Of a DNA stretch of 64,000 nucleotides, positions 171 through 30,866 are shown piece after piece. Position 1 is the stretch's first letter. Every line of letters starts with the position of its first letter. This DNA comes from Magnolia sinica (lineage: Eukaryota > Streptophyta > Magnoliopsida > Magnoliales > Magnoliaceae), in contig NC_080586.1 of NCBI RefSeq assembly GCF_029962835.1, positions 71,611,001-71,675,000 on the forward strand, read 5' to 3'. The position numbers were made by a program, and so were the translations under genes. The notes below the pieces were generated by a model. That model was not told where the DNA came from. It saw nothing but the letters and a program-made list of their open reading frames with translations, and ran no database searches.

Positions 171-215
171 CTCTATAAAAGTCTCCCGCTCTACCACTCT
201 CTCGTAGCAGTGAAA
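171..215 (+). promoter_or_regulatory. TATA box and short leader of the hydrolase gene
   Basis: A clear TATA box (tctataaaag, core 174-180) lies 36 bp upstream of the ATG at 216. If transcription starts about 30 bp downstream of the TATA box, the 5' leader is only about ten bases. The ATG context is gaaaATGgc, with A at -3 and G at +4, which is favourable. The start site itself is inferred. Confidence 0.6.
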
Positions 216-3200
216 ATGGCAAGTTCTCAGTGCTGTGAAAATCCTCCCACGTTGAGCTCCGCATGCGGTCAGGGGTGCGTAGAAGACTTCGGTGGCCTCA
301 AGGCCTACATCACCGGCCCTTCCGATTCCAAGCTTGCTGTTATCCTCGCTTCCGATGTTTTCGGTACATGTCGATTTCACCTCCTTTCATGCACTATGCA
401 GATTTTCTACCAAATTTATTTCTCTCTTTGTTTTTTTTTTTCCATCTGGGTTTTCAGAATTTGATGTGTTTGATGATTGCTATGTGCGAATTCGATGTTG
501 GTTTGCTGAAATATTGTTGTTTTTTTTTTCTTTGTTTTTCTATTGATATGTGGATGGTATTTTTGGTTCTTTCATGTAGTTTGATGTTTGATGTTTGTTG
601 TTGTTGTTGTGTGTTTTTTTTTTTGTTTTTTTTTTTGTTAATAAAAAAAAATTTTAAAAAAATTGGATGCTTGATATGAGTGTGTTTGATATTGGATTTT
701 GGGGGTATTTGGTGGGTTTCTAGTATTTATTTCCTTTGATTTTTTTTATTTTTATTTTTATTGATATGTAGTATTTGGGTTTCTAGTATTTATTTTTATT
801 TTTAATGTTCTTTCATGAATTTGAGTGTAATTATTCTTTTAAGGGTCGTTTGGAAGTGTGGATTAAAAATCCCTGTGGAATTGAGAGGATTTTGCATATC
901 AGCTTTGAGGTGGGAATGGTAAAAGGCTCTTTGGAGGGATCAAAGTCCAAATCCTTAGAAATCCTTGCTACCTAATATCCCAAAAAACTAAAATCTTCAC
1001 AAATCCCGAATCGAAGCTGCCAAACGATCCCTAAGTGGCCTTTTGCATGTGGGTTTTGGTTGTTTGTCACTTTTGATGCATGGCATGAGAGTATCTGATG
1101 TTGAATTGTGGAAATATTGGTGGGTTTTTTTGTATTTCTCTTTAGAATTCTTTGTTTAAAATTTTCTTTCATGCAGCATGTTGTTCTTTGTTTGAGTGTA
1201 ATTCTTTTTTAGTGGACTTCACATGTGGATTTTGATTTTATTTATTTATTTATTTTTTCCCCATTCAAACTGCTTTTGATGCTTGGCATGAGGTTAGTTG
1301 ATCTTGGTTTGTGGCAATATTGGTGGGCTTTTGTTGTTTTGCTATTGGAAGATGATACGGTGGAGTGTATGAATTGGAATATCATAGAACCATTTCTGCA
1401 AAGCATATGCTGCCGGATGAAGTATTAAATCTATTGATCGAGTTCAGCCATCTAATTTCATGTATCATGGATGGCAACTGTCATACCCCAAACTCGGGAA
1501 TCAGGCTCACAAAATTTTCAGCTGCCGAATCCGGTGCCGACAGCCTCCGTAGTACCCCATTCTCGGCTCCCAGCTCACATGCGTTAGGTTCCGATCCTGG
1601 GATCCTATAAGGAGGATTTTCAGGTTGATTTTTTATTTTTATTTTTTGTAAAGGAGCATAATCATAAGTGTACCCAAGTCACCAAAACATGATCACATAT
1701 CCATTAATATAATATTTGAATACAATGCTGAAAGAGAAATATATCATATAAAAAAATTTCAAAAGATCGGGCACATGCTCCTACCTCAATGCTGCTGCGG
1801 TCTACCATAACCTGCACATAACGAACATGCATAAGCTTACTACGAAGCTTAGAAAGTATGTGCACAATGCATGTGCCAAGCATATAAATGCCAAAGTAAG
1901 CAGAAATGATAGAATGCTAAACTGGCAAGTCCATAAATGATGTTAACCATACCAAGCTATGCAATGCAAGGCCTACATGGCCGAATGTCATATGTTAGAG
2001 ATGCAATGCAAGCATGCCAATCCTCAACTAATCCACGTATCTGTATGGTTCGTCACTGGAAACAACACCGGAGTCTAGTACACTCCAACACTGGTTACCG
2101 CCCCATCTCCCACATGACCAAGTAAGTGGAAGAGATCTCACTATCTGCCTTACCAGTGGTATACCAATGCCGACCCAGCTCGTCGATAACAGACCCATTT
2201 ATGAGCTAGTCAAACTCAACCTAGCTTACGATCCCCTACCCTTGGGCGGATAAGGTCACACCCATTTTCAATCAACCATGACACAATGAGAGACGTGGCC
2301 TACTAGTATTCGACACTTGGACGCTCATGTTATCCATTCGGTCTCGACGTTGAAGCATCCTACTGGTACCACAAGGGTTTAGGGACTTCACCTAAGGACA
2401 TCCATAGTGCCCTAATGCTAGAACAGATATTTCCAGTATTTAATCTGGCAATCCATAATATGACTGTGGAGGGCATAACCCTGATATCGCTAGGGCGTAA
2501 AGTGATCGTGACATACAAGATGCGAAATGTATAAGTCATACCATTCAAATCATGCATCAACCTGCGCGTACAGCGCGATTATATGGGGCAACCCTATCTC
2601 ATATAGGCTCCCCTAAGTATCTCAGCCCAATGGCATATGATATGATCGATCACCACCCACAACATGCATACAAATGATGCGTATGGGCATGTCTAGGCAT
2701 GATATCATTATACTGAACATGCTATTAGTGTGTCCTATCAGGCTAAGTACACTAGCATATTATCAGACATACCAGACAATAATCGGCACATCATATACAG
2801 AGAGTGAGAACTGAATGACATGCCTTACTAGAAATATAGAAGTTTATGTGGTATGGCCCACGTTAGACTAACATCAGCTCCTCATGTAGCCTGCAACACA
2901 TGGATAGGATATATATAAAAGGGCGGGGTCCATTGGGAGTGACCCGGATGGACACCCACATGTACACGTGCGTCACTAGGCTACCAATCCATTTGGGCAT
3001 ATGGCCCACTAATGATGTCCCAAAATGATCAGATTATCAATGGCATCACTATAGTTACTTTGGTAGAATGATCTACATCGTTTGATCATTGCTAACGTAA
3101 ATCGACGGATATAGATCATTGGTTAGTCACTAGGATGTGATCATATACTCATGGCCCATCTGAGTTTTGTGATTTCATCAGTTCAGGCAAGGTATATGCA

Positions 3201-6200: not shown

Positions 6201-9200
6201 GCCTTTGAAATGATTCTAGGAAACGAAAAGAGTTAATGGTCAGCATGCATTGTTCGATAGTAAAGAAAGGTGATGGATATGATTAGGCCGGCATGCCTGT
6301 TTTTTGATAAGTAGGTCATCCATTGTAGTCATCACTAGATGGAAGGCTCTGTTTGATGCATCACCCTACAAGAGTTAGTGCTTTACCGTAATTGTCCTTT
6401 TATTTGTAGATGCATGGTCCTTTTATTTTCATTTATGCAATATTTAGACTTTTGTCTGCATGTTGTCTGATGGTGGGTAGTATTGAATATTTGTTATTTT
6501 GGTGCTTACAACTACCCTTTTTGGTACAAACACCCTTTTTCTACTTTAAGCAGTGAGAAGGTGTTTGTTGTTATTGCCAGTGTCATTTTCGTTGTTGCTG
6601 TGCTTTCTTTGAAATTTGAATGCTTAATATGACATATTTGATTGTGCGTTGTGATAATTTTAGTGGCATTTTGATATTTTCCTTTTGGATTTTTTTTCCT
6701 TTCTATAAATTCTTCTTGTTTGGGGTGGGCATATGTATTTATAGCGAATTATCCTTTTAAAACAAGCATTTATAGTGAATCAGAGATTTTTTTTTTCTTC
6801 CTATAAATACTTCTTGTTTGGGTGGGCATATGTATTTATAATTTTATAGCGAAGTATCCTTTTTAAAAAAAGCATTTATAGCGAATCAGTAATGTCATCA
6901 TTGTGGCTGTTGCAACTTGCAACTTTGAGTACTTCCATCCTCGTCATCATCCTCACAATCATCCTCAATGTTGTGTTGGCATCATTGTAATTTCACTTGC
7001 TTGTTTGCCTATTGCCTTTTCCGCTGGCTTCCAACTTTTTTCGGTAGCCTCCTATGATAGTTCACCACCACCATTTTGAAAATGGTGGTGATTCATCCTC
7101 CTCAAATGTGGTACTGTGTTTGGCAGTCTACACCTTCCAAAACTTTTGGAGGGGGCATTGTGAGTGGAGCATATATGTAAATTCACACTAGTAAAGAAGT
7201 CCCATCAATCCAATGTTGCTATCAAAAGGATGGTTAAGTATAAATTCCATGGGAGAAATATTATATTCTCAGTGTAATTTTTGGTTGAAAAGGGTGCCAA
7301 TTTGCATGTTTTTGTTGGTTATATAGTTTTTAACGGACATTCTATAAATAGGAGTGTGCCCAGTACTAGATACAGACTACAGAAACTTCCTACAATAACG
7401 GCACAACACGCTCTATAGGAGTACTGTTACAGTATGCTATTTAATTTTATTTTTATTTAAAAAAAAAAAATAGGGATAATCATTTATTGGTTTTGTAATG
7501 ACATATGGCTTGGAATATTGATATCAAGAAAAAATAGGTTTTTTAGAGAACAGGTTGTCTTGCAAACAGAGACCACCCTAAGAAATCAATCTTTTCTATT
7601 GAATTTTGTGAAATGCATGTGATCTAATTTCTTCTTTTCTTCGTCCTACATTCTCAAATCCATCCACCAGGCATCAAGTTGGTATCGGAGCAAGTTCCGT
7701 CCATGGATAAATGGCTACTGAGGAAATATGCTGGAGGAAGTAATAAGGAGACAACCAATTTGAGGGAAGTATAAGAGATTTAAAGTCGATTGGATAAGTT
7801 GACACTGTTGACACAAGATCAAGGAGAGGCTTCTCGTCCACGCCAAGGTGTTAGCATCGTGTAATTGTGTATTGGTGATTGCAACACTGTTCTAGTTGGT
7901 CATCCTAATGATAGAAGAGATTAACGATTGGAGGATCATGACTGCAAATATGGTGTAAGAGTTGAGATGCCTGGGTCCAGTGAAGTGCCTAAGAATTTCA
8001 AAAAGCACAAATCCAAGTCTCATATTAGAAGAATTATCCAACAATTACATCACAAACAAAGATGATAAAGACGCTGGTCGATGGCTGGATCGCAGATGGA
8101 TCAACAGACCGATTGGCAAAAGTCGATGAGGTTTATTTTGAAGCATGTATGGCACATTAATCATTGCACAAAGTTCAAAATAGGCAGTTCAAGATTCAAG
8201 AGTGAGATGGAAGACACGACATTGAATATGGTCCACAAAAGGAGAAGGAAAGCAACGATGCACAATAATATGGGGTGCCTCAAAGATCATTGCAACTGGA
8301 CAGGTGAGCCTACATCATAAGTTTCTAGCAACGCTGAAACTGCACCTTGACAATGGTGGGTCCTATTTGGGGATGCATGCGGAAATTGAAAGTGCACTTA
8401 TTGGCATAACTGGATGAGGTGTATTTTAAGGCATATATGACACATTAATCATTCTACAAGATCAAAATAGGCAATTCAAGATTCAACAGAGAGATGGAGG
8501 ACACAACATCGAATTTGACAACGAAAGCAACAACGCATGATAATATGGGATGCCTCAAAGATCACGGCAACTCGATGGGTGGGCCTACATCACAAGTTTC
8601 TTGCAAAGTTGAAAGCCCACCTTTACAATGGTGGGCAAGGTTTTCCATAATGGTAATGGTGGCCGTAACGGCCACCGACGTTACTGTTACATTTCAGGCC
8701 GTTACAACCATTACGGTCTTTCTTTCTTTCTTTTCTGTTTTTTTCTTTTTGAAAAAAAAAAAAAAAAAACTGTTTCGGACCCATTATGGGACCATTGCAG
8801 GTTATTACGTGACATTTTTTTCTCAACAGCTGTTACGGCCATTTCTACCCCTCAATGCGTGACGGTTGCAACCGTTACCATTACCATTATGTAACGGCCC
8901 ACAGCCGTTATGTAACTGTTTTGGCATAACATGATGGTGGGTACTGTTTCTAGCAAAGCCGAAAGTGCGCCTTTACAATGGTGGGTCCTGTTTGGGGATA
9001 CAATGGGGGCTGTGTCAAACAACCATTTACTCCAAAAGCTTAAGTTGTCAAAGAGTGTGGTGTATCAATGTATATCAAGGGACTTTATCACTTTAACACT
9101 CCCCCGCACGTGCGAGGTGGGAACTCCGCACGGGAACATATTGACGAAGGTAGAGGGACACTCACACCATAAATAGGCCGGGCTTAATTTCCCAGCCCTG

Positions 9201-12200
9201 GGCCAGACCTGATTTTCCTGACCCCCCGTGGGAGAATAATATATTAGCGAGGCATATTTGCTGCTCTCGAGATTCAAACATAGGACCTTCCGCTCTGATA
9301 CTATATCAAACAACCATTTAATCCAAAAACTTATGCTGTCAGAGTATGGTGTATCAATGTATATCAAAGGACTTTATCACTTCAACAGGCTGCCCGTTAT
9401 ATGCATGCATCGAGTCTGGTTTTTGTGGTTTTAGAAGTTTTTAAAAGAGTTTCGACAAATAATTATGAGCTAGAAAACTCACTACAGTACTTGATACCAT
9501 ACTGCATTATAGTAAATGCTACATTATGCCCTGCAGTACTGCAGCTGAGATTTATCAGAGTTTGAAACTAAATTCAGGTTTGTATATCTTTCTAGACATG
9601 CATGGTTTTGTAGATGACATATGGCTTGGAATATCAATGAAGGAAAAGTAGGTTATTTTATAGAAGAGAGTCTTGCAGAGAGAGAACCCAAAAACATCAT
9701 TGTTTTTTTTTTTCTTGAGTCGTGAAAATCATCAATGTTTCCTAATGGAATCGTGTGAAAAGCGTGTGATTTAATCCCTATCAATTCTTCTTTTCTGCTT
9801 CCCACAATATCAAATCTATCCTTCCTATGTCACGTGGATTTTTGTTTCTTGAATTTTATTTTTAATTTTTTTATTGCTGCCATGGCTGTTGAGGTTATAA
9901 TCATATTGTTGTCATGTTTGCCATTGTCATCATTTTCATGTGTGCACCTGCTTATTATCATGGCTTACATGTTTGACTTGAACATTTTACAGGATATGAA
10001 CCACCAAACTTGAGGTATGGCCATCTATGTTCTTGACCTAATTGTTTAATTTTATTATTGATATCATGAGATGATAAAATGATTTCCTTATATTTCTCCT
10101 ATGGTTATACATATTAGAGGTTATAGGGTCCAGTCGTTAGTGTTTTGGTGAAAAGATAAGATCAAGATTTAAATTTTTTCACTTAATAAGTTTGTGGTCC
10201 AAATGATCTAAAATCATATTATGTCATTTTGTTTGTTTGTTAAAGTTGTGCTGCATGTGCGTTCATTTACAAACGCTTGTGTGATTTCAGTAAGCATATT
10301 CAATATAGCTCCCATTCATTATTAACATATTTGCTTGTACCATTTTATTTATAGAAAGGAGACCTCGCTTAAGCTTTTGATCTACAAATGGTGAGGGAGG
10401 TCTGGGGGTTTCTTCTTTAAGTTACTCAACATTCATCGTCATTCCAAAGTTGGCTGTGGATCTTTTAAATGGTGGGATTGTAGGGTCCTCCCAAATTAAG
10501 TTGGTGAGTTGTATGGAGGTTGCTCCTTTTAGCTCTTATGTGGGGATTATGGAAAGAACAAAATAGATGAACTTTTTTTTTTCTTTGGTAATATCTTGAC
10601 ATTGATATTTGTACTGAAGGAAAGAACTGAACCCTTCATCATAAGTTAGGATTAGTACTGAAGCTTTTAAGGTACCATTGTCTCAAAATTGGGTGGTAGT
10701 TGGAAATTGGTCATTTTTTATTATGTCTAGCATTGGGAGAAGACTGACTGATTGGTACCTAGGCTTGTGAAAATTGAATATGGAAGTTCAAGGGGGGATC
10801 TGGGTGACTTGGTAGTTGAGGGTGTCATTAGAGAAAAAGCTTGTTGGGTTGGTGCGGCTTGTTTTTGCAGTCCAGTGGAATTGGTGAATCCAGTTCCATA
10901 GAATTGGGGGCTATAACAAAGGACTATATCAGGTTATAACAAAGAACTACAACTTTTGTTCAAATCTCTAAATGGGCTCGTCGTGGTGGAAATAGACTTG
11001 AAGGCAACCATCTCTTGGGTCGCTACTTCGTAATATCCTGGTTTTGTGGAAAGGAGTATCTGTTGTAAATGAGATTAAAGATATGGCTGGTTGTGAGAAA
11101 ATTTCCTTGATGCAGGTGTCTAGTGGGGTGAACTCCTTAAGGCTTGTTTGGATTGTGAAGAGCATGAGAGAGGAAATGGTGTTTTTTCGAAAACCTTATC
11201 TCTAAATATTGTGGGGAAGGACCGTGTTTCCCCATTTGTTTTTTGTTAGAGAGAAAACTGTTGAGATATGGAGCCACATGCATCTGGGGGCCGCACGACC
11301 GGTCGTGGCCCCTGCTCGACCGGTCGTGAGCAGTCGTAGACTGGCTCGACTCAAAGTCCAGCGAGAATCAGATTTTTGGTTCCGAGGTGCTCGACCGGTC
11401 GTAGCCCATGCTCGACCGGTCATGGGTTCCGCTCAACCGGTCGTGCAGTCTGCTCGATTGGTCGTGGTTATACAGATTTATTTCTGAATTTGATGCGGAC
11501 TGTGGATTTTTTAGTCGGCTTTCGCAAGGGTGCGAAAGGGAAGTTGCCTAAACTATATATAGGTGTCCCTAGGGCTTTTCTAGTGTATTGGAAATTATTG
11601 GGAAATAATTCTAAGATATTAGCAAAGGATTTTCTATGTACTTTCAAGGGAGAGGCTAGTATTTTGCCTTGTAATTTTCATTTTTCTTCATAGTGGAAGT
11701 TTGCATCCGTGGTTTTTTACCCTAGTTTGGGACTTTTCCACGTATATCTTGTCTTGTGATTTGTTTGGATTGCTTTAATCTATTTCTAGTTTATATTTTT
11801 TCTTGTTTATTGTTTGTAGGTGACACCGGAGATTGGATCTTGGTTCACTGCATTGTTGGCATGCTGCGCAACAACTGGTATCAAAGATATTGGTTTAATT
11901 CTATTTGGAGAGATGACAGAAGAAGGGAAAACTAGAATTGAGAAGTTTGATGGTTCAAACTTTGCCTTATGGAAGATGCAGATGGAGGATTATCTATATC
12001 AGAAGGACCTGTATATTCCTCTAGGAGGAAAAGAGAAGAAACCAGAAAAGATGACAGATGATGAATGGTTTTTACTGGATAGGAAGGCTTTCGGAACGAT
12101 CCAACTCTCTTTGTCTAAGAGTGTCGCCTTCAATATATCCAAAATGAAAATAACAAAAGAATTAATGAAAGCCCTAGCCACCATATATGAAAAACTCTCT

Positions 12201-15200: not shown

Positions 15201-17060
15201 TAGGAGTTGTTAGTAGGTTCATGAACAACCCCGGGAAGGAACATTGGGAAGCTGTGAAGTAGATCCTTAGATACCTAGTAGGTACTAAGGATATAGGGTT
15301 GTGCTATGGTGGATCGAAAATCAAGTTACAGGGCTACGTGGATTCAGATTTGGCAAGAGATCATCGACAGCAGAAGAAGCACTACAGGTTATGTCTTTAC
15401 TTTAGGTAGTGTTGCAGTCAGTTGGGTCTCTCAGTTACAGAAGATAGTGTCTATTAGTACGAAAGAAGCAGAATATGTTGTGGTTACAGAAGCATGCAAG
15501 GAGATGGTATGGATGTAAGGTTTCATGGAAGAGTTGGGTAAGAAGCAAGCAGATTGCAAGTTGTATAGTGACAGTCAGAGTGCAATACACTTGGCTAAGA
15601 ATTCAGCCTTTCATTCAAAGACCAAGCATATTGCCATCAAATATCACTTCATACGTTCGTTACTGGAAGATGGATTGATCGCTCTGGAGAAGATTCATAT
15701 AAGTGAGAATCCTGCGGATATGCTAACCAAGGTAGTCACACGGGAGAAGTTGAAGCTCTGTTCAGCTTTAATTAGTCTTCAGGCTTGAAGACGGAGAGGT
15801 GGTGCACTCCGGATGTAGAAGACGAAGGTTTATAGCGATGTGTCTCCAAGAAGGAGATTGTTGAGATATAGAGCCACATCTGGGGGCCGCACGACCAGTC
15901 GTGAGGTCTACTCAACTGGTCATGAGCAGTCGTAAACTGGTTCGACTCAAAGTTCAGCGAGCATCAGATTTTTGGTTCTGAGGTGCTCAACCGGTCGTAA
16001 CCCATGCTCGACCGGTCGTGGAGTTCGCTCGACCGGTCGTGCAGTCTGCTTACCGATCATGGTTATGCAAATTCGTTTCCGAATTTGATGTGGACTGCGG
16101 ATTTTTGAGTCGACTTTTGCAAGGGCGCGACAGGGAAGTTACCTAAACTATATATAGGTGTCCCTAGGGCTTTTTTAGTGTATTAAAAATTATTGAAAAA
16201 TAATTCTAAGGTGTTGGCAAAGGGTTTTCTATGTACTTCCAAGGGAGAGGTTAGAATTTTATCTTGAAATTTTCATTTTTTTTTCATAGTGGAAGTTTGC
16301 ATCTGTGGTTTTTTACCCTAGTTTGGGGTTTTTTCATGTATATTTGGTCTTGTGGTTTGTTTAGATTGTTTTGATCTGTTTCTAGTTTATATTTCTTCTT
16401 GTTTACCGTTTGTGGGTGAGACCAGAGATTGGATCTCGGTTCATTGCGTTGTTGGCGTGCTGCGCAACAAAAACCTCATCTCCATTTCGACTGCATTTAT
16501 TGTGGTTTGTGAAATCATGATTACCTTTTCTAACTTCCCACAAGAATCATCGCTAGAATTTATCGTGGATTTCCCTTGGAAGAGAAACCATGATTACCTT
16601 TTCATCAAAATTACTGTTTTCCGTTGTTTGGACTGCAAGAATACAATTTCCCTGAATTTATCGTGATTTGAAAATCATGATTACATTTTTCCACGTCCTC
16701 ACCTTGGATTCCTCAGGCAGGGAGGGAGGTTGGGAAAAATGGGGTTGTTCTTCAAATGCATTCCTTGTTTGCATTATATAATACCTCTTCCCTCTACTAC
16801 AAGTGCTCTTCCTCTTTCATTCTGTGAATACTTATATGATTACTTGGTACATAGGAAACTTCTTCTTTCTTTTTTTTTTGGTTTGTTTGTGAAAGCTAAT
16901 ATTACCTACATTTTACTATAAAGGAAGCTCGCAGACAAAATTGCAGCGGCTGGGTTCTATGTGGTGGTCCCTGACTTCTTCTACGGGGAACCATACGAAA
17001 CCGATAATCCTAATAGACCCGTTTCGGAGTGGTTAAAAGATCATGGAACGGTTGGTTTCT

Positions 17061-17112
<52 letters not shown>

Positions 17113-20100
17113 CTTTGTTTAGAGTTTATTATTGATTTTTGAATCAAAAGGTCACTTATCAATGATTGATTACAAGGAGCATTATGCTTTTGTGGTTTGT
17201 TTTCAATCGGTAAGTATTTATTTAGGTTAACAAAGCAGACATGTTGTGTATAGTACATCAAGACCATATGATTATTTCTGGCCGCTTGTCTCTTCATGTA
17301 GTAGGTTAGGGAAGCATACATGAGTGTACGGTTCATGCCTACATGCATGATTGCCAGGGGCTACTCAAAGGGGTAGGCAGGTGATGCAATCGCCTAAGGC
17401 CCCCTAATTATGAGGTCCTATATTATAGCAAAATTAAAATTAAGAAGAAGAAAAAAAACCTGAATTTTTTGAAATAAAACTTATTGAAAGGCCTACAAAA
17501 TAGGAACATCTAAAAATTAATTTACGAATTTGAAATTGAAAATAAAAAACAAATCCTAGAAACTAACACTATCAATAATAACAGTCTAACTCTATCGTCT
17601 CTTTTCAAAATAATAGCATCATTTTCAATAAATTCTTCTCCTAAAACCTAGGACCACAACTACCTACTTTATTGCTAATTAAGTTCTCAAAAAATTAAAT
17701 TCTAACATCATTTTTCTAAATTAAATTCTAACTTCAATTTTGCATCTAAAAAGGCAAGAAGCAAATTTATGGTTTAATTTTGAATTTATTATTATTTTAA
17801 CTAGAAGGCCTCATTTTTATGACCTGCCTAAGGCCCCCAAAAATGTTGAGCCACCCCTGATGATTGCATGGTTGTTTGTATATGGTATGTATGCTTATGT
17901 AGGTTAACAAAACATACTTGCACGTATATCTTCAGGTGTGCATGTATTAATTATTGCATGGTTGTTTGCGCATTATATGGATGGGAGAGATTCTTGCAAT
18001 GATACAAGCAAACTCATTGAACTTTGCTTCTGTATGGATGGGCTCGTTCAACCAAAATGGAATGCTTTCACCTTTTGGTGCACAGCATTCAACTGAAAAA
18101 AGTCCAGACTTGGTGGCTAGGAGTCCAGACATGGTGGCTAGGATCTTGCAACCTGGTTACTTTTTAGGCATGTTCCGCTGAAGGTGGCATGCAACAAACC
18201 AATTTTCTGATTGCTGAACCGTGAGCCCACTTTTTAGAATTGAAAACCCATGTATATTGTGCAAAGATGAGGGTTGTGTTCCACTTGGTTTCTCTAATAG
18301 AACCGGCAAAAGTTATGTCTAGGGGAAAAGGTCACACGTGGACTGGTGCACCTGGATCTGCCAAACATCTCCCACTATCCAGTGTTATCGGGGGAATACC
18401 TACACATCTACCACCAGCTTCTCAAAATTTTGTTTAGAAATGTGCAAAGGGTGTGATGAACATGTGTGGTGATCAGGACTGTTCATCCAGTGGGCTACCT
18501 GTTGGATCAGCTGGAGGCAATTATTGCAGTAATGGGACAATAATAACCATTCAGTTGTTGTGAGTTTTTCCATTGCAAGTGGACCATTTCTCCATTTTGA
18601 GCGATTTGGCCCCTTTCCTAGGCCTCTGATCAGATGGGCCATCAAGCCATGGTCTACCAAACCTACAGTCCTGATCACTGTTCAATATTGTCATATGTAT
18701 GGCAGAGATTTCTCAGTGGCATATCCTGAACTCCATGATGTCCATGTGTCATAGCAGCATTCACTTTCATATATCCCTTTAATGCATCAGATATGCAAAG
18801 GTTTTCTTTCTAGAAGTGCCTGTGTTGGACATGAAGTTATCCAAATGGTCCCTTGGTTTTTCTCATGTTGATATTTGTTGCTATTTGAAGATGTCACTGT
18901 AGCCTTCTTCCATACATATTTTGGAGTTCGTTCTAGGTTGAGGCGTGTCCAAGTGATAGCACTATGGGAAAAACAAAAACAAAAAAAGAAAGTCAAAAAC
19001 TAGATATGTGCGGATGTAACATTGTGTCACGCAATAGGCATTTTTTGAACCATCATCTGAATATTAGTCTGCTATTCAAAACCCCATTTTAGGCCTTGTA
19101 GGGAAAAGATAAGAGTCATTTATTTTTTAACCTAGAGACATTTTGCTTTTCAGTGTCAGTAACTCAAGTACACTTATCATGGCACAGCTATCTGTATTCA
19201 TTCCTTCAAGGATGCATCCTTCTGCTATGAATTAATTGCAATATTATGATAAGAATTCAGCATCCAACACCTTATAACATTCTTACAGGATAAAGGAACT
19301 GAAGATGCAAAAGCAGTTGTTGCAGCTTTAAAAAGTAAAGGAATATCTGCAATTGGGGCTGCAGGCTTTTGCTGGGGTGGTGAGATTTTCTTGTCCTCTT
19401 TCATTGATGCAAGCTTCCTTCTATGGAATATTTTAGCACATTAACGAGCTATAGTAATGGAGGTGCGGTTAGCAGAAGGCTGGACAATGTTAATTCAGTC
19501 TTATTGGGGAAGTGGGTGTGGAGATTTGGGGTGGAAGAGGACAGCCTTTGGAGAATCATCATTGTCGTAAAATATAGCACCTCTTCCAAGGGATGGTGGA
19601 CAGAGGATTCTTCCCTATGTTGTGCGTTGCACCTCTTGAAGGCTGTCGCTTATTTGGCTAGCAAAGTGTTCAAGAGCGTGGGATTCTCCGTTGGGGACGG
19701 GGAACAATTGGGAAGATGTCTGGATCAGGGAGTCTCTCCCAAGGTTGCGGCTTTCGCTTGGCTTGTTGACAGAAACAGGGTCCTTACTGTTGACAACCTT
19801 CGCAAAAGGGCTATGGTGCTTTCAAATATCTACCTCCTGTGCAAAAAAGATGTGGAATTGGTGGATCATGTATTCATCCATTGTCCTTTTCTAGGGGCGT
19901 TTGGTTTGGAATTCTGGTCTATTTTAATGTTCCCTGGGTGATGCCGAACTCTATAGAGGGGCTCTTCCATTCATGGCATGTTGGAGGATTTGGGAAGAAG
20001 GGAAGGTCGAGGTGGAGAGTGACTGTGCTTGCCATTCTTTGCACCCTGTGGGGTGAAAGGAAAAATCATTGTTTCCAGAGTAGAAGCGGCTCTCTTGGGA

Positions 20101-23100
20101 ACTATTGATTGGGCTAAAATGTTCATTAGGGAGTGGCCGAGTGGGTGCCCTGATTTTGCTGCTTGTTTCTTGGTTTGCTTCGGCTTGCCTTTGTTTTTCT
20201 TGGCCTCTTGTCTCTCTTAATAAACTCCATTACTTTTCAAAAAAGAAAAAGATGTCCCATTAAAAATTCTATTGGTATTTTATTTTCTTAGTACTGTTAG
20301 TCATGGCTAACGTTCAACTTCCTACATCTTTTTTTCAGCAAAAGTAGTTGTGGAATTAGGGAAGCACAGTCTCATCAATGCAGCAGTGCTTTGTCATCCT
20401 GCCTTTGTCACTGTTGATGATATTAAAGGCAAGTGTCTAGTTGCTCAAACACTTTCGAAACAGAGGAATCATATGATCATGGTTGTTGTACATTTTGCGT
20501 CTTGAGGCTGTGCCTGTGGGATTCATGATTAGTTCACTGATCTGATGGGCCTGGGAGATTTATGGTGCGTGGTCTATGTGGCCTGTCAGATAATTGTCTG
20601 GATCACCAGACGATGGGCCCCACTTGTACAAACTCACTTATAATATCTCTTCAAAGCATTTGTAAATTTCATTAAGCTCCTATGCTTCTGTTGAATCCTG
20701 ATTCACTAGAGGTTTTCTTTTTATTTTAATCTGTTACCTTTTATATTTTATAAATAATGATTTATATTTTTTCAGAGATTAAAACTCACATTGCCATACT
20801 TGGAGCCGAGGTTGACCATACTGCACCACCAGAGCTGGTGAAACAGTTTGAGGAGGCTTTATCTGCGAAAGCTGAGGTAAGGGATCTCCAAGCTTTTAGA
20901 ATTACAATTGCAGGCTAAGCATTTTTTTTCTCTTATGCTTGATCATGTGTTTTGGTGAAACTCTGTGGATATGACCGAACCCCTCTATATAGATTGGAAC
21001 CATTTCTAATATCAAATACAGGCGAATGGAAGTTGGCATGCTATATCATCCGCCATCAGTATATTTCGCCTATTTTACCCTGGTACGGGTGCTCTGCATG
21101 GGTCTAGTTGTCAAACTTGCTCCACATGTGAGAGTATGATGACACATCTATGTATTATTAAAATATTTATAGCATATTCTATTAAGTTTTAAATATATAA
21201 TCATTAAACTATTTTTTGGCATAAAATATTGGTTATTGCCAAGCTACATGCCTTTTCATGTCTAAACATTGCTTTGAGGGATTTGAAGGATCCAAGTGTC
21301 ATAATATTTATAACAACGGTCTGAATATCCGCTAAAATGGACACTAAACCAAAGCCCTGGAACTGCTAAGCTTATGTATGACATGGATCCCATGTTGTGT
21401 CACATGACTCTCATCTGACACTGGTGCTTCGAAGGTTTTTGAGGGATTTAATGAAGATACTATTCAGCATTCCCTTTCTGTATGAATTTCCCAAAAACCA
21501 CTTTTCCTAGAAAGAAAGTCTGGGCCCACAATACTGCAAATCTCTCCCATTCAGTCTGTTACCATTTTACCCACATAAGGAGCTTGATCAGAAGCAGTGT
21601 TACCTAAATAGCCAAACACCCTATTTTTTCCCTTCTGAATTTTGTAATCCTGATTGTGGGTTATTTGCGATCCGGATTGCTATTGTTGTAGACCTGAAAT
21701 TATGGATCTCTAAGTGTTTGATTAAGATGAAACCTAAATTTATATTTAGGGTGTAGAGGTTTTTAATTTGATTTGCGCAATAAGATAATAGAATGCATGC
21801 CAAATCTATAATAACAACATCATTTCATATATAGATTACTAATGTATAAAAGTATATTGCATATACTTCGTAGATGTGTTGGGAGTAGCATACACGGTGT
21901 TGGAGGAAGTAGCGTACCCTCTACCAGTTTCTGTACCACATACCGGAGTGTCCCACAATCAAATAACCTTGATGAGGTGTGGTTCCGAAGAAGTCCCAAA
22001 TCCAGAGATGTAAAGGCAAGAGTCCTTACACATGCACAATTGGTCACTATTAATTTGATACTGTGTTCTCCATATAATTGAAACACACGTCTTTGTGAGA
22101 AGTTTTACCAAGTCTCATCAGGTTTTTGTTCAAGGCTGCAATCGGCGCACATTGGCAATCTGTTGAAAAATCCAGACCAATGATTTGAAATGCCACCTTA
22201 TTAGAGCTGCAACTTGGGTTCGAGTTCGAGCCAGGTTGGATTGGTGTAGGTTTTGAAAAATCTTAACCGAATTTGAAACCGGGTTGTGTTCCGGTTGAGC
22301 AAATTCGGCCAGGTTAGATAGGGTTGGGAATAATCAGGCGTATTTGGGTCACAAGAAATTCCAAAAAAATTTAAAAATTTTCCCCGGCAACGGCGCCAAA
22401 AACTTGTTCACTTCTCAAGCATAGACCGAGGTCGAATCCCAAGGGACTGAAACCTGTACGTTATCTGAAACTAAGTAGAACTAGAACTAGACTAAGACGA
22501 AATCTAAATCGAATAAATTTAAGGAATAATGGTGAAATATTTATCTAAAATCTAAAATTCAAAGGTGGGGAACTAGGGTGTCAAGGATCCACTTGTAGCA
22601 ATTGGGAAGTTACCTTGTATTGATTCAGGGACACAACTGGAATTAGAGTCCTATTTTGTGCAGTTGGTAAGATGAGATTTGTTAGATCTCTGAACTTCTC
22701 ATGGATCTAATTATCAACGGATAAGATTGGTGAAGATTTGGAAGTGATTCTGTCACCTAACCATTCCTAGGAGACTATGGCAAACATCAACAATTTACCA
22801 ATCTCACAGCTAATCATGAGAGAATTGTGAAAGTTAGGAAGGGTTTCTTCACCCAACCATGCCCATGAGATGATGGTGAACAACGGGCCTCCTAAGTTCA
22901 CAATCTCATAATGAAAAGAACATACTTAAAGCTATTGCAGACCTACTGTAATTTGAGTCACAATAAACCATTAAAAACTAAAAGCATTCCTTAATAATCA
23001 AACTAGAATCCATAAGAGTTCAATGAAGCATGAATTAAAACAAAGCAACCATCCTAATCACGCTACAAGCTTCTCCTCTTAGCCATAGTTAAGAAGTTTA

Positions 23101-26100
23101 ACTTAGCAAAATGATTAAGCTAAATCCTTTAAACAAAAATAAAATAAACAAAAAGAAAAAGAAAAATAACTCTACTCTCTCTCCCCTATGCTTCACGTCC
23201 AGCCCAAGATGATCTCCTACACGTCATCTCTCCTTCTCCTTTTATAGCAGATATGGTCGATAGAATGCTGGAGTCGGCGTGCGTGGAGAGATTTCGTAGC
23301 AACAGTAGGTTTGCGCAGGTCCTGTTTACGCAGTCACAAAAACAGCGCCGACACTCCCGCTTCCCTTACTTTCTTTCCAAAGAAACAACGTCCCTTAGGA
23401 CATTTTGGGATGTCCTACACGATGGACGGTTCAGATTGGCCATCTGACCATCGATGGTGGGCCAGGACGATCCGGAACGTCCAGTTCTTCCGGACTGCGC
23501 AACAGAGCCAGCGCTTCTTGCACTGGCTGTCGGTGGGGCCCACTCCTTCTGATGTCTGTAAAATCCACTCTGTCAATTGGATTCAAGACGAAAAATCGTT
23601 TGGTTAGACCGAGACCAGGTTGATTACGGTGTCCCACAAGACTTTTCATTCCACCGTCCATCTTACTTTTAATCACAATCCACGTGCGTACACGTGTATA
23701 GGGCAAAAAGGCCACCTAGACGAGGGTTGTAGCTACCCCACGGAAGTAATGGACGGTTCAGATCATTTCTATGGGCACGAGTGGGGCACACTAGTGAAAC
23801 CTAATCAGACGGGGACCGTCCCGACATGTTTTGGAAACTTTTTAAAAAAGCATCGATCAGCGATTTCTTGATTTTTTGGTGCCCGTCCAGTGCATGTGTG
23901 CTATGCATATACACCATGTAAAGTGAATTACATCTTAATGTAAATGAAGAATCCGCTCTATCTATTCCTTTCCTCATCCCATTTAATGCGTTGAGACCAA
24001 GATTAATGCATATCCAAATATCAGGTGGGCCCCACATTAGGATTTAAGGGGCTAATATGTCCTTTGGGCCATTTCCACAGGGGTCCAATGGTTCAAATTT
24101 TACTTGTACGGTTAATTTATGGTCCTCGGGCTATGTATGAAGTTTCAAGCCAAATGGATGGTGGAAACCCTGTGATCTTGCATTCTGGCTGACTTTCAAG
24201 CCACTTGAGCTTCAATTTCTCGATTTTCTCGGATCTCTGGCATGTAAATCCGTCGATCTTGGTCCCCTGGGGTCCATCCCTTGCCTTGGTGACTCATGAG
24301 CGTTAAATTCATGCTTTTAACATCCTATTTCAATCTAAGCTCGTAAATACACCCTACATCACAAACACGATTAAATCGGGCTGTTAAACAATACCATGTT
24401 CGTAAATCCAGGCAATAACTAGGGTCTAATATGCAATATTTGACCCTCAACACAATCTCCAACCAGTATCTTGCTAGTCTCTAGCAAAGTATGCGAAAAA
24501 TAAGTTGAGACTTACATGACGATTTCCATAAACTCGAGTGATTTATGAAAAACAATCCAGATCCTAGAATTCTAAGATTCATGAATGTTGGGCATTATTT
24601 TCTCCTAGCCTCAAGCGCACGGTAAATTTCATAGTCAAGTTCAAAGTATTAATCCATCAATCAGAAAAATTCTAAACATTGAGTTCTATAGGTGTATAGT
24701 GTAATCTCGGCTTACCATCATTAAGAGATCTAATTGTCAATTTCCATGATTTATTGATGATCAAATGAGCATTCAAGACAACCAAAACCTAAACTAGAAC
24801 TTGCTTTATAGTTTTTTTTTTTTTTTTTTCATTCTTCTAGCTTTTGATTTTTCCATCGAGGGGGAGGGGAATCAAATCTGCACCTATAGGGAGCAAACTT
24901 GTGGTGAAAATTGTACACCCAACCCTTTCCTGATGATCACTGTTTCTTAGCTGGGTATTCTTTTTCTTTCATTCATTCTTTCTTTTTTCTCTTCTTTTTT
25001 TTTTCAAAAACTTCGTTTTCTTTTTCTATATTCTTCGTATTGAACAAGATGGACAAATTCCCTAGGTTGGTTCCTTCCATGCTTAATGATCACCAAGCTA
25101 AAACTTTAATGTGCAAGCAAGATGTGTCCTGTAAATTCATGACTCAATCAATGTTTAAAACTTCTAATCATGGATTAACTATTCGAACGTATTGTGAAAT
25201 CTAATAGATAACTGAATCCAAGAGTCATAAATTACCAAAACCACGTATCTTGCAATTATAAAATCACAACTATTCCTCAAAATCACTTCGAATTCACAAG
25301 AAATTTCAGAAAATTTTAAAAATTTTCACAATAAACTATTTCGAATCCACGGAACTTCTCTAGACTCCTCACAGAGACATTCGAATCCACGAGAAAAGAA
25401 AGCAGAAAATAGAAATAATTCCTAATAAATTCGAAATTGATTAATGAATCCATAAAAACAAGTTCACAACCCTTTGAATAAGGGTACCAAGCAATGGGAA
25501 AGAAATCAGAATCAAACTACAACTAAAACTCCTAAAAATCGCGACTTACTATAAGTAGTAAAGTTTCTATTTATAGACGGTCATGATGTCTACTAGTGCG
25601 CAAGGTTTTCGGCCAAAAATAGTAAGTGTCCTATTTGGCTTCACCAAACTATTCTCCTAATTTTTCTAAGCTATTTTCATGTTGGACACAACTCCTAAAG
25701 CCCAACGGATGAAGAGTTATATACTCAAACTAAAACTTACTATTTATAGTAAAAATGAAATTAAAATAGGGAAACGACCATTGATCCAGGGGTATTTCGC
25801 AAATCCGGCTTGCGCAACCTTGCGTAGCAGGGTTGGTTGGCTAAAGTAGTTCATTTTACCCCAAAATCATATATTTTACGTCAGATAACTCATTCCGGAT
25901 TGTGAGATACGCCCGATTTAAGGTCTGATGGTCTGAATCACTTCTGTCGTCGACCGGGCCTTTTTTGATCCATCTTGGCCATGTAACTGTCCACGACCCG
26001 CTCTACATCATTTGAGGTCAAGTAGAGAGGAATTCGGGTCAGGTAAGGTTTCGGGTTGGGTCTTCTTGAGGTTGGTTTGGGCTCGGTTTGACCCTCAACC

Positions 26101-27052
26101 TGACCCGACTGGTCCGAGCGGATGGGACACAGGTTTAAAGTTTTCAACCATTCTGGCTACATATTCTTTCCAGGTCTTTGCTCTGAACATTTTTTAATCT
26201 TCCAAAAGGCTGGTCATGGATAAGAGTATCGAACTTCCAATGACAGATTTTTAGCTAATGGTCTATCCAAGAGATTGCCACTGAATGAACACCTTAGATC
26301 CATCACCATGTGCACAAATTTGCGTGTTTGTAGGATCAGTACCCTCTTCTAAACGGTACCACATGTGCTTTGACATCTAAGCCTCGGATGCTGGTTTCTT
26401 TCCTCGAAGTAGTTTCAAAGATTTCTCATACAAAACAGCTCCAAATGTGCAAAATCAATCCATCTGCCTCTTTTGGATCTCAATTTTCTTAAATGCCATT
26501 AGTTTATATGAGCTTTGCTAAGTCCACATGAGCGTGCAAGTCAGCTAATGCACATGCCACCACATGTGCTAGTGCGGCAGACATGATATATCCAAGCCAT
26601 TCATCAGGTGGAACTCACCGTGTAGATGTTGCTGCCCGAGGATAGAGGCGGTCCACTCGGTAGGCATGCCATGATATTAGAAATAAGTAGATGGATTAGA
26701 AAACTTCCTCCAGTTTTTAACAATTGTGCATTTGTTAATTTAAATGTGGCCCACCTGACTAGTGTTCCGACCTGATCTTGAAATAATGAATCTACATATG
26801 TAATATTAGCTTGATATCAATCACTGCATTCATGAACATTCCCACTTTCAGAAATAGCATTCAAATGTGTTTACTTCGATCAACGGCTGAGAACTGCTGG
26901 TCTATCGATAGGTGGATGCTTTTGTGAAGATCTTCCCGGGGGTGGCTCATGGATGGACGGTGAGGTATGGTGTTGACGATGAACCAGCTGTGAAGAAGGC
27001 GGAAGAAGCGCATCAGAACATGTTGGACTGGTTCACAAAGTATGTCAAGTAG
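216..27052 (+). CDS. Dienelactone hydrolase family protein, seven exons over 26.8 kb
   Basis: Alpha/beta-hydrolase of the dienelactone hydrolase (DLH) family, like plant proteins labelled 'endo-1,3;1,4-beta-D-glucanase-like'; the plant substrate is not settled. Coding exons: 216-363, 9993-10014, 16924-17050, 19289-19379, 20339-20428, 20776-20876, 26912-27052 (stop TAG). They total 720 nt, 239 residues, the family's usual length, with all phases agreeing. The DLH triad is visible: nucleophile Cys127 in GFCWG (exon 4), Asp173 in GAEVD (exon 6) and His206 in VAHGW (exon 7), close in number to Cys123/Asp171/His202 of the bacterial enzyme. No signal peptide or membrane segment is seen, so it is probably cytosolic. 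Introns are about 9.6, 6.9, 2.2, 0.96, 0.35 and 6.0 kb. Intron 5 starts with GC rather than GT. Exon 2 is 22 nt and supplies G-YEPPNL-R. No break is seen, so the gene looks functional. Upstream: TATA box at 174-180. LSM2 lies tail-to-tail downstream. Confidence 0.93.
364..842. other. Intron 1, first part: no gene
   Basis: T-rich intron sequence with a (GTT)n run near 595-615 and poly-T tracts. Nothing else is recognisable. Confidence 0.6.
843..1031. mobile_element. Tourist-like (PIF/Harbinger) MITE in intron 1
   Basis: A 189-bp element begins GGGTCGTTTGGAAG and ends with the inverted form CTGCCAAACGATCCC. It is flanked on both sides by the 3-bp target duplication TAA (840-842 and 1032-1034), the hallmark of PIF/Harbinger MITEs. 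It has no coding capacity. Confidence 0.85.
1032..1478. other. Intron 1 stretch without features
   Basis: Ordinary T-rich intron DNA. It repeats the 'ttgcatgtgg..ttggttgtttg' flavour of its surroundings loosely, but no gene or element boundary is recognised. Confidence 0.5.
1479..6154. mobile_element. Putative large solo LTR or non-coding LTR-element relic in intron 1
   Basis: The block starts TGTCATACCCCAAACTCGGG and ends ATGGGTCTTACA, a TG...CA pair of the kind found on plant gypsy-type LTRs. It is flanked by gcaac (1474-1478) and acaac (6155-6159), an imperfect 5-bp target duplication. It is 4.7 kb, holds no retroviral reading frame, and contains several degenerate GGGCCCACC-type stretches (about 3350-5420). 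A solo LTR of a long-LTR family or a LARD-like unit fits best. An unrelated patchwork between chance ends remains possible. It is a fossil with no coding capacity. Confidence 0.45.
6155..7484. other. Intron 1 stretch, no gene
   Basis: A+T-rich intron sequence. The only structure seen is the tandem duplication described at 6689-6888. No open frame of note. Confidence 0.5.
6689..6888. repeat. Two-copy tandem duplication of about 100 bp
   Basis: Two adjacent copies (about 6689-6781 and 6788-6888) share 'cttcttgtttggg', 'gggcatatgtatttata' and 'gcatttatag.gaatcag'. The second has an extra 'attttata'. Slipped replication or unequal exchange in the intron is the simple explanation. Confidence 0.75.
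8081..8640. repeat. Two diverged tandem units of about 300 bp inside the LTR element
   Basis: Unit 1 (about 8081-8380) and unit 2 (about 8400-8640) share a series of phrases: 'gatgaggt.tattt', 'cacattaatcatt', 'caattcaagattcaa', 'aatatggg.tgcctcaaag' and 'ctttacaatggtggg'. A third, partial unit resumes at about 8938-9000 after an inserted MITE. Confidence 0.7.
8640..8935. mobile_element. Inverted-repeat MITE rich in CCGTTACGG motifs
   Basis: The left side reads 'aatggtaatggtggccgtaacggcc'-like sequence and the right side its inverse ('ccgttaccattaccattatg', 'acagccgttatgtaac'), with an A-run in the middle. It interrupts the third tandem unit. A relative lies at 45185-45345. The superfamily was not determined, because no clean target duplication was found. 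Confidence 0.55.
9013..9387 (-). mobile_element. Complete TRIM retrotransposon, 375 bp, with perfect target duplication
   Basis: Terminal direct repeats lie at 9013-9098 (86 bp) and 9304-9387 (84 bp), about 88% alike by eye. The flanks are GGCTG (9008-9012) and GGCTG (9388-9392), a perfect 5-bp duplication. On the - strand the interior starts with TAGTATCAGAGC (9303-9292), one base from the initiator-Met primer-binding site and directly abutting the LTR. It ends with a purine tract, GCGGGGGAG, against the other LTR (9099-9107). There is no coding capacity. It sits nested within the LTR element 7485-9832. Confidence 0.9.
9993..10014 (+). other. 22-nt micro-exon (exon 2) of the hydrolase gene
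   Basis: The 22 bases are flanked by a textbook acceptor (cattttacag) and donor (gtatgg). They enter with two bases completing Gly50, encode Tyr-Glu-Pro-Pro-Asn-Leu, and leave two bases that make Arg57 with the first base of exon 3. Plant homologues have a FEAPNLR- or YEAPNLR-like segment at this place, from memory of the family, so only one residue differs. Skipping it would shift the frame and would also remove the segment just before the KLADK helix. Confidence 0.9.
10015..10400. other. Start of intron 2, no gene
   Basis: Unremarkable T-rich intron sequence between the micro-exon and a LINE relic. Confidence 0.5.
10430..11190 (+). mobile_element. Degenerate LINE 3' fragment with RNase H-like domain
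   Basis: Broken + strand frames read '[12 protein letters not shown]', the typical end of the RT-associated zinc region of plant L1-like LINEs. Further on comes '[20 protein letters not shown]', which resembles the RNase H-like domain (D-G-S-x-R-G-x-x-G motif). Many stops and shifts interrupt it, so it is an old relic in intron 2. The limits are approximate; no target duplication was seen. Confidence 0.55.
11259..11873 (+). repeat. 5' LTR of the Tnt1-like element
   Basis: 615 bp. U3 carries five or six copies of a palindromic CGACCGGTCG-type motif (about 11294-11470). A TATA box, ctatatatagg, lies near 11553. Ends TGTTG/CAACA. Confidence 0.92.
15859..16469 (+). repeat. 3' LTR of the Tnt1-like element
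   Basis: 611 bp partner of the 5' LTR. It keeps the TATA region and fewer exact CGACCGGTCG motifs, several having decayed by C-to-T or G-to-A changes. A purine-rich tract (aagaaggaga) lies just before it. Confidence 0.92.
16475..16923. other. End of intron 2, no gene
   Basis: It includes two similar 'gaatttatcgtgatt(t)' phrases (about 16555 and 16655), probably a minor local repeat. It ends in the acceptor before exon 3 (ctataaag), which has a weak pyrimidine tract. Confidence 0.5.
17063..17108. repeat. (TC)n microsatellite next to the exon 3 donor
   Basis: A run of 23 TC units begins 12 bases after the 5' splice site of intron 3 (donor GTTGGT at 17051). Confidence 0.95.
17355..17859. mobile_element. 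hAT-type MITE in intron 3 with perfect 8-bp target duplication
   Basis: A 505-bp element begins CAGGGGCTACTCAA and ends with the inverse of CAGGGGTGGCTCAA. The flanks are ATGATTGC at 17347-17354 and ATGATTGC at 17860-17867. The CAGGGG ends and 8-bp duplication are typical of hAT. Near both ends a CCTAAGGCCCCC block is inverted. The interior is A+T-rich and non-coding. Confidence 0.92.
17868..19288. other. Remainder of intron 3, no gene
   Basis: No recognisable element. A short tandem 'agtccagac(t/a)tggtggctagga' pair occurs near 18100-18145. The intron ends in a good acceptor, cattcttacag. Confidence 0.5.
19440..20252 (+). mobile_element. 5'-truncated LINE (L1-like) in intron 4
   Basis: The first frame reads '[10 protein letters not shown]', 'DSLWR' and 'GWW', followed by 'PKVAAFAWL' and '[10 protein letters not shown]', the zf-RVT region found after the reverse transcriptase of plant L1 elements. 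It ends 'ttaataaactccattacttttc' followed by an A-rich tail (20239-20252). It fills most of intron 4 in host-gene orientation, has at least one frame change, and lacks EN and RT, so it is dead on arrival. No clear target duplication was found. Confidence 0.8.
20429..20775 (+). other. Intron 5 with GC-AG boundary
   Basis: Exon 5 ends ATTAAAG and the intron begins GCAAGT, the strong consensus known for plant and animal GC-AG introns. It ends ttttttcag. Only this boundary gives Glu160 (G|AG) and the conserved DDIKE-x-K run. The nearest GT, four bases on, would shift the frame. Confidence 0.88.
20877..22380. other. Start of intron 6, no gene
   Basis: Ordinary intron DNA up to about 22200. Then 'tagagctgcaacttgggttcgag' and further CGAG/CCGG-rich phrases resemble the subterminal part of a hAT element (about 22205-22330), possibly cut by the neighbouring LTR insertion. 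Confidence 0.4.
22381..24466 (-). mobile_element. Gypsy-type LTR with tRNA-Asp primer site on one side and polypurine tract on the other
   Basis: The LTR spans 22405-24452 (2.05 kb; on the - strand TGTTGAGGG...GTGAACA). Just past its 3' end lies TGGCGCCGTTGCCGGGGA (22398-22381), the primer-binding site complementary to tRNA-Asp used by Athila/Tat-like and some LARD elements. Just before its 5' end is CTGGTTGGAGATTG (24466-24453), a polypurine tract. So one LTR has internal sequence on both sides. No coding remains. A fossil. Confidence 0.75.
24467..25259 (-). other. Probable non-coding interior of the same gypsy-type element
   Basis: On the - strand this leads into the polypurine tract at 24453. 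It contains A/T runs and the phrase 'gagggggaggggaatcaaat' but no reading frame. Assigned by position only. Confidence 0.35.
25260..25925 (-). repeat. LTR-like fragment with TATA box, related to 60775-61160
   Basis: On the - strand it contains GTCTATAAATAGAAAC (a TATA box), then a transcribed-looking stretch ending with 'tctcgtggattcgaa' and 'gaagttccgtgga'. The same order and many of the same phrases occur on the + strand at 60775-61160. It looks like part of an LTR (U3-R-U5) of a second family. It has no coding capacity and its boundaries were not found. Confidence 0.5.
25926..26911. other. End of intron 6, no gene
   Basis: It starts with GACCCGA-rich sequence (about 26010-26135) reminiscent of hAT subterminal repeats. 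The rest is plain. Exon 7 follows the acceptor tctatcgatag, which has a poor pyrimidine tract. Confidence 0.4.
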
Positions 27053-27712: not shown

Positions 27713-27984
27713 GCAATCTGCGCAGAGCACAGTATATGCTCTGTTTATGGAGATTCTTGCTTTTGTAGTAAACTTTTTGGAAAAAAAAAAAAAAAACTTT
27801 GATTGCATTATATGAGTTGGCTTCAAGTCACTTAAAGTACGAAGTCTTCTCCCAGTTACTCGAATCAAAACTCGGCTGATGGGGGGTGTCAAGTGGGTCC
27901 CACTTGTACAAACTGAAAAACCTGAAATGGGATGTGGCTTGTAATGCAGTTTTGTGTATGATCTGTTTTCTTGATTTTATTGGT
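27053..27984. other. Intergenic and 3' flank of the hydrolase gene
   Basis: The 3' UTR should start here; no single clear poly(A) signal stands out. Contains the (TAA)n run described separately. Confidence 0.5.
27675..27710. repeat. (TAA)n microsatellite
   Basis: About twelve TAA units downstream of the hydrolase stop codon. Confidence 0.95.
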
Positions 27985-28801: not shown

Positions 28802-28922
28802 TCGACCACCACGAGCTTCTCTCCGTGTAGCATCATGAAGTATATCGATGTCGTCCCCATCCGGGGGAAGCTGAACATACCTCACTACTGACCCCCCTGA
28901 TGAAACAGTTTCTTGCTGACAT
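28802..28922 (-). pseudogene. Decayed second copy of the LSM2 terminal exon
   Basis: It reads like the real exon at 35969-36088: VVRYVQLPPDG and DIDILHDATRREARGG are recognisable. A G-run that is five long in the real exon is six long here, which puts RNCFIRG and VVRYVQ in different frames. The stop TGA has become CGA. Two extra bases (AG) lie at the acceptor. It lies about 7 kb downstream of the real exon in the direction of transcription, so it is not needed by the gene. Interpreted as a non-functional by-product of the duplication; use as an alternative exon is unlikely. Confidence 0.85.
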
Positions 28923-29980: not shown

Positions 29981-30002
29981 GTGTGTGTGTGTGTGTGTGT
30001 GT
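29981..30002. repeat. (GT)n microsatellite
   Basis: Eleven GT units just inside the left subterminal repeats of the hAT element. Confidence 0.95.
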
Positions 30003-30745: not shown

Positions 30746-30866
30746 TTTGAACCGTTCGTACAACTCGGAGCTCGAGGACCGTCGGTGCTCGTCTTCGCAC
30801 GACATGTTCCCTATATAGCTGGTGCTAGGCTGCTAGCTACAAACAGCAAGAATGACATCTCCCGTG

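Follow-up and report, generated by a model that had tools for sequence, protein, structure and literature searches.

A dienelactone-hydrolase-type gene of Magnolia sinica lengthened by intronic transposon insertions: one copy of a seven-gene tandem array

The stretch of Magnolia sinica DNA analyzed in this work (hereinafter the window: 64,000 nucleotides, C14:71611001-71675000) contains, at positions 216-27052, seven widely spaced exons. We suggest, with a probability of about 0.87, that they form an ordinary protein-coding gene for a plant dienelactone-hydrolase-type (DLH) alpha/beta hydrolase, that this gene (copy G) is the last of seven genes arranged in tandem, and that insertions occurring after the tandem duplication explain most of its size. 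The seven-copy architecture is part of a larger picture that the reading of a single window could not show. The idea of a gene stretched to 26.8 kb by transposons, put forward in the original prediction from the window alone, is in agreement with the paralogs, the empty sites and the retention of the reading frames reported below.

All the exons of G lie on the + strand. Exon 1 (216..363, 148 nt) carries the start codon and is followed by exon 2 (9993..10014, 22 nt), the skipping of which would shift the frame, exon 3 (16924..17050, 127 nt), exon 4 (19289..19379, 91 nt), exon 5 (20339..20428, 90 nt), exon 6 (20776..20876, 101 nt) and exon 7 (26912..27052, 141 nt), which carries the stop codon. 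Joined in frame they give 720 nt, that is, 239 residues plus the stop, and the coding share is 2.7% of the 26,837 bp span; these values coincide exactly with those originally predicted. Introns 1-6 measure 9,629, 6,909, 2,238, 959, 347 and 6,035 bp, respectively, and are bounded by GT-AG throughout, with the exception of intron 5 (GC-AG). A TATA-box-like element (174..180, + strand) was read by eye about 40 bp before the ATG; the same reading recognized tataaa before the ATG in six of the seven DLH copies, the motif being degenerate in copy A.

The assignment to the DLH family, also part of the original prediction, was borne out by the Pfam DLH profile (PF01738), which matched the G protein with an E-value of 1.7e-35 (123.1 bits versus a cut-off of 21) over positions 2-216 of 217. 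The best solved structures were those of a putative dienelactone hydrolase (3f67, 3.2e-7) and of an uncharacterised protein (4zv9, 6.7e-6). The coding alignment revealed that the Cys in xCWG (exon 4), the Asp in AExD (exon 6) and the His in HGW (exon 7), which we take to be the Cys-Asp-His catalytic triad of the DLH family, are kept in all seven copies; the G protein presumably has enzyme activity. Protein searches gave no relatives among the 17 pattern matches in viral_contigs and none among the 44 in genome_contigs, and the scans of the window with Rfam (gathering thresholds) and for tRNAs gave no matches.

The search of the 1.84-Gb genome to which the window belongs retrieved 43 DLH matches, 42 of which on the contig of the window (C14) and one, weak (26% identity), on C2; only the best candidates were scored, so that more distant copies could be missed. 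The 42 matches correspond to six exons of each of seven genes (A-G) lying on one strand between 71,066,803 and 71,638,052; hence, six further DLH copies share the contig and the strand of G within 571 kb. All seven exons were found in the DNA of each of A-F, as in G. Indeed, when introns 1-2 of the seven copies were searched for exon 2 (22 nt) together with the flanking AG and GT, exactly one candidate per copy was found, with 0-5 substitutions, the mean at up to 5 substitutions being 0 in 20 Markov resamples per copy. This search, together with the Pfam match and the identical architecture of the six paralogs, shows that the exon structure of G is not due to chance. The frames are open in all seven copies (720 nt each, 723 in F), and introns are GT-AG in all of them except for intron 5, which starts with GC in seven out of seven.

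In spite of this common structure, the spans of A-G vary, being 20.4, 16.9, 38.9, 32.1, 21.7, 17.4 and 26.8 kb, respectively. Introns 1, 2, 3 and 6 range from 2.3 to 23.7, 1.8 to 8.2, 1.6 to 7.6 and 2.3 to 16.0 kb among the copies; intron 5 measures 347-390 bp across all seven, and intron 4 is 160-164 bp long in A-E versus 959-963 bp in F and G. The trees constructed using the coding sequences recovered the sister pairs A-B, C-D and F-G, every one of these splits having a support of 100, and placed E with a support of 73.

A large fraction of the intron DNA of G has no counterpart in the same intron of another copy. At an E-value of 1e-6, 14,421 of its 26,117 intron bp (about 55%) had no same-intron alignment in any of the other copies, and this private DNA corresponds to five insertions, for a total of about 14.4 kb: a 4,676-bp solo-LTR-like repeat, a 375-bp TRIM, a 5,211-bp copia element, a 505-bp hAT MITE and a 3,659-bp gypsy-like composite. 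Four of the five are flanked by target-site duplications (8/8, 5/5, 5/5 and 4/5 bases), the composite lacking a clean one; empty sites were recognized in F, E and D for the solo-LTR-like repeat, the TRIM and the hAT element, and in F for copia. The private intron DNA of A, B, C, D, E and F amounts to 5,641, 977, 21,005, 13,296, 8,138 and 5,087 bases, respectively, so that the private share is 29-55% in six of the seven copies, B (6%) being the exception; having only 977 private bases, B must have grown mainly by DNA common to A or to others. Much of the extra DNA of the other copies is likewise common to pairs rather than private.

The solo-LTR-like repeat of intron 1 (1479..6154) has TG...CA ends and the flanks GCAAC/ACAAC (four matching bases out of five). 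The 400 bp at its 3' end recur at many dispersed places in the genome (730 candidates, of which 40 were scored); in all 12 places inspected among these 40 the sequence ends in CTTACA, ten of them run into different flanks and two share one, with no common primer site seen. Further along the same intron, an older TRIM-like element (7488..9706, + strand) is bounded by repeats (7488-7595 and 9603-9706) that are 79% alike and has a Met-type primer site at 7680; parts of it can be aligned with intron 1 in each of the six other copies. Inside it lies the TRIM/SMART-type element private to G (9013..9387, - strand), with 86-bp LTRs, the duplication GGCTG (5/5) and a Met-type primer site with a mismatch, on the minus strand, at 9292. 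The copia element of intron 2 (11259..16469, + strand) is full-length and stop-broken; it has LTRs at 11259-11874 and 15859-16469 and the duplication AAAAC, and separate stop-to-stop pieces match Pfam gag, Pol_BBD, pre-integrase, SH3 and RVT_2. The paired LTRs, the 5-bp duplication and the gag and RVT_2 matches in copia order place it in Ty1/copia. The MITE of intron 3 (17355..17859), flanked by ATGATTGC in 8/8 bases, has CAGGGG-type inverted ends, which we take to be hAT-like, and with 505 bp is too short for encoding a transposase.

The LINE relic of intron 4 (19456..20253, + strand; Pfam zf-RVT, 5.4e-12) is common to F and G only: its absence from A-E follows from alignment and intron length, and empty sites were shown for A, D and E. 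The greater length of intron 4 in F and G is thus explained by its entry in the F-G ancestor. The gypsy-like composite of intron 6 (22352..26010, - strand) is absent from F, which has about ten other bases at the insertion place; a 677-bp part of it recurs in intron 3 of copy C, and it contains at 22381, on the minus strand, a motif that is presumably an Athila/Tat-type primer site.

The nine elements named in the original prediction, which counted at least eight, fared differently. The solo LTR (better described as solo-LTR-like), the TRIM, copia and hAT are all supported by ends, target-site duplications and empty sites in the paralogs, and the older TRIM-like repeat pair of intron 1, with its Met-type primer site, is present. 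The gypsy LTR of intron 6 stands as an insertion absent from F, but as a composite without a clean duplication; as for the two LINE relics, the one in intron 4 was recovered and a second one in intron 2 was not supported, since none of eight stop-to-stop fragments of at least 45 residues matched Pfam at E 0.01. The Tourist element was not confirmed, no sign of it being seen. The nesting of transposons holds for the TRIM inside the older TRIM-like repeat and not elsewhere, the other large inserts lying side by side. Once the five private inserts are excluded, the introns contain 102 stop-to-stop fragments of at least 45 residues, 42 of them in intron 1; of the 60 beyond position 9990, which were compared with Pfam, one matched. 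A CPP1-like match at 8449-8859 (25.1 bits, below the cut-off of 28.4), in the TRIM-like repeat region and with a low-complexity end, was set aside.

Subtracting the private DNA from G leaves about 12.4 kb, and subtracting the 4.9-kb LTR-type insert of intron 3 from F leaves about 12.4 kb as well. On this arithmetic, the common ancestor of G and F was probably about 12.4 kb long; after the split, five transposon insertions would have added about 14.4 kb to G, and one LTR-type insert about 4.9 kb to F. More generally, tandem duplication and, after it, independent insertions into introns 1, 2, 3 and 6 most likely account for most of the size, whereas intron 5 did not lengthen in any of the seven copies, nor did intron 4 in A-E. 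Selection presumably purged those insertions and frameshifts that affected an exon or a splice site.

As to whether copy G is still a working gene, it might be dying, or be a recent pseudogene, if the transposon load and a weakened last acceptor blocked the full-length mRNA and the frame were open merely because the loss is recent. The last acceptor of G does look weakened: the final 15 bases of intron 6 are identical in A-E, with two differences in F and four in G, three of the latter being G-only, and the pyrimidine tract is interrupted; efficient splicing, part of the original prediction, would have to be achieved with this acceptor. The dN/dS of F-G is 0.74, and the G branch, polarised by outgroups, has eight nonsynonymous and five synonymous changes (p 0.19 versus neutral; five ambiguous F-G differences were set aside), a neutral-like ratio; both values would fit a gene in decay. 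However, the dN/dS of G versus A-E is 0.30-0.41, the AG of that acceptor is kept, as are the presumed triad residues, the other splice sites of G match those of the paralogs, and neither a stop nor a frameshift is found in any of the seven copies. From the intron indels, 3.9, 3.2 and 3.8 frameshifts would be expected in F-G, C-D and A-B, respectively (about 11 in total, a generous expectation, since introns are richer in simple repeats than exons), and none was observed; for F-G alone the probability of finding none is 0.02. Hence, we consider the loss of G unlikely, even though it is the alternative that survives best, and we retain the reading of G as an ordinary protein-coding gene.

In the three pairs, the exons accumulated substitutions (41, 36 and 31 of 720 in F-G, C-D and A-B) at nearly the intron rate. 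Compared with the intron divergence, dN is equal or slightly higher in F-G and C-D and lower in A-B (0.030 versus 0.051). Pooling the six recent branches gave 65 nonsynonymous and 30 synonymous changes (p 0.05 versus neutral), B (5:8, p 0.003) being the only branch significant alone. The lack of frameshifts, combined with substitutions near the intron rate, implies that frames were held while amino acids were weakly constrained. Variable residues are densest at columns 76-100, though not significantly so (p 0.18), and one G-specific change, A53P, falls in exon 2. In the C-D pair we observed 29 nonsynonymous and seven synonymous changes (dN/dS 1.21), which might reflect relaxed or diversifying selection. 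This ratio, the near-intron rate of coding change, the pooled branch counts, the A53P change, the weak last acceptor of G and the sharing of much extra DNA by pairs of copies all weigh against our reading.

As to the force(s) that might have kept such long introns, a regulatory role (delayed transcription, or the hosting of silencing signals) could be invoked, and in Chloranthus a higher expression of long-intron genes, declining above 40 kb, is reported (PMC8626473). Nevertheless, among the copies intron 1 differs about tenfold in length and intron 6 about sevenfold, and the private share of intron DNA given above (29-55% in six of seven copies, 6% in B) is that expected for neutral insertion, which makes a regulatory explanation improbable. 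The wide spacing of the exons might, by itself, suggest parts of separate genes or a misassembly, but both can be dismissed, the identical exon order, phases and splice sites of six other loci ruling out a chimera and four of the five private insertions having target-site duplications and empty sites.

The comparison of the copies also allows the LTR clock to be checked. Since F has the empty site, the copia insertion should post-date the F-G split. However, the two copia LTRs differ by 68 transitions and 10 transversions in 610 sites (K 0.145) and are about 2.7 times more diverged than the F-G introns (309 transitions and 224 transversions in 10,839 sites, K 0.051; 0.054 with a second selection of alignments). 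The transition:transversion ratios, 68:10 versus 309:224, are different (p 1.8e-7), and the excess concerns the non-CG transitions (odds ratio 4.3, p 1.7e-12) and not the CG contexts (p 0.40); transversions alone, 0.016 per site in the LTRs versus 0.021 in the F-G introns, agree with an insertion after the split. The simplest reading of the excess is that methylated cytosines of the element were deaminated. The copies may also have undergone gene conversion, but this by itself would leave the mutation spectrum unchanged. The TRIM private to G has LTRs with a K of 0.10 (eight differences in 84 sites), also above that of the F-G introns.

In the whole array, five of the 13 repeat rows were taken as element pairs, the other eight being matches between different elements, old intron repeats and a tandem array of copy E. 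The pairs of C (0.038; C-D split 0.049), E (0.118; E-G split 0.122) and F (0.023; F-G split 0.054) are not older than the corresponding copy splits; that of D (K 0.078) exceeds the C-D split (0.049), but its ends are not LTR-like. The transition:transversion counts are 65:10 in C, 50:22 in E, 4:4 in F, 51:23 in D and 68:10 in G. Thus, the claim of overdating rests on G (copia and the small TRIM); the other copies show no overdating, although the spectrum of C is alike. The ages in years of the LTR pairs, calculated with three rates, one of them published, were set aside because the LTR clock is doubtful here.

We can speculate that the array represents a natural experiment: a single gene structure expanded to 16.9-38.9 kb, mostly through insertions restricted to one copy or one pair, with frames and splice dinucleotides held and the coding sequence diverging about as fast as the introns. 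The array could be a diversifying enzyme cluster with methylated intronic transposons inside transcribed genes, in which an LTR clock would overdate the G copia nearly threefold. Taken as a whole this is a tentative and rather doubtful proposal.

Other features are found around G and in the array. An LSM2-like gene (35972-48636, - strand; Pfam LSM, 4.1e-13), named for its likeness to the LSM2 protein, has exon matches near 48636-48469 and 36094-35972, with about 12.4 kb between them; in its C17 counterpart 25 kb separate the corresponding exons. A duplicate of its last exon, with a frame break, lies at 28805-28922 (- strand), within a duplicated block (27979-33498 versus 35006-37480), and a further match to this exon (C14:71493348-71493431) was observed 2.3 kb beyond the 3' end of DLH copy F. 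The F/G duplication thus probably carried the LSM2 tail. The window also contains a palindrome (31904-32930) that is self-complementary over about 1 kb with 86% identity, a second copia element (50929-57351, - strand), whose LTRs measure about 950 bp (K 0.068) and which contains gag and RVT_2 pieces, and a 487-residue stop-to-stop frame (62420-63880, - strand) with many leucine-rich repeats, perhaps receptor-like. Finally, in intron 6 of copy E (L025 1575-3523) a unit of about 324 bp is repeated head to tail about six times, some units being 99.7% alike, which points to a recent expansion inside the intron; the unit matches positions 26270-26581 of G.

The search of the same genome with two other genes showed how usual such lengths are. 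Triose-phosphate isomerase gave 18 matches in seven loci, the three multi-piece loci spanning at least 7.9, 11.8 and 15.2 kb; adenylate kinase gave 19 matches in ten loci, seven of which multi-piece, spanning 0.35-7.5 kb, some of them partial. Hence, long genes occur elsewhere in this genome, though not everywhere. Some large plant genomes contain many stretched genes, but how these grew is difficult to reconstruct when only one copy exists; seven tandem copies provide matched empty and filled sites, so that per-intron insertion, the extent to which a 22-nt exon between long introns is tolerated, and the bias affecting LTR dating become testable on one structure. No paper found by our literature search joined long introns, transposable elements and dienelactone hydrolase, and among the titles and abstract beginnings listed none described such an array.

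Alongside the exons, common structure, empty sites, open frames and copia transition excess observed in G, we infer that this copy is transcribed, spliced and methylated: a transcript would presumably be made from the conserved TATA promoter, the introns would be removed by normal splicing, and the intronic transposons might be kept silent by DNA methylation, as for IBM2-dependent genes. EDM2 is linked to IBM2 in the handling of intronic heterochromatin. The loss of IBM2 in Arabidopsis and rice is reported to lead to premature termination or polyadenylation in heterochromatic introns (PMC7145194). The resemblance lies in the presence of a full-length LTR element in the intron of a coding gene, the G copia having in addition a non-CG transition excess; unlike those genes, G is known from its DNA sequence only.

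Like plant microexons, exon 2 is internal and very short, and the frame is broken if it is lost; according to a microexon study, introns upstream of microexons tend toward late splicing (PMC8831610). With its 22 nt, lying between introns of 9.6 and 6.9 kb, it is nevertheless above the 15-nt limit of that study. Jatropha esterase B is a plant dienelactone hydrolase with a Cys nucleophile (PMC8533429); the two proteins share the DLH family and, presumably, the cysteine nucleophile, G being known here through its sequence alone. As for the introns, genome reports describe long, LTR-filled introns in Chloranthus and long introns also in six magnoliids (PMC8626473), a mean intron of about 2.8 kb with a median of 525 bp in Magnolia biondii (PMC7917104), and a few long introns in the genes of white spruce (PMC4108047). 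The DLH gene G is thus a good example of a known phenomenon, the lengthening of introns by transposable elements: like the long-intron genes of Chloranthus and the magnoliids (PMC8626473, PMC7917104), it has conserved exons and introns of several kb, and, unlike in those cases, its history can be read, with empty sites, within one seven-copy tandem array.
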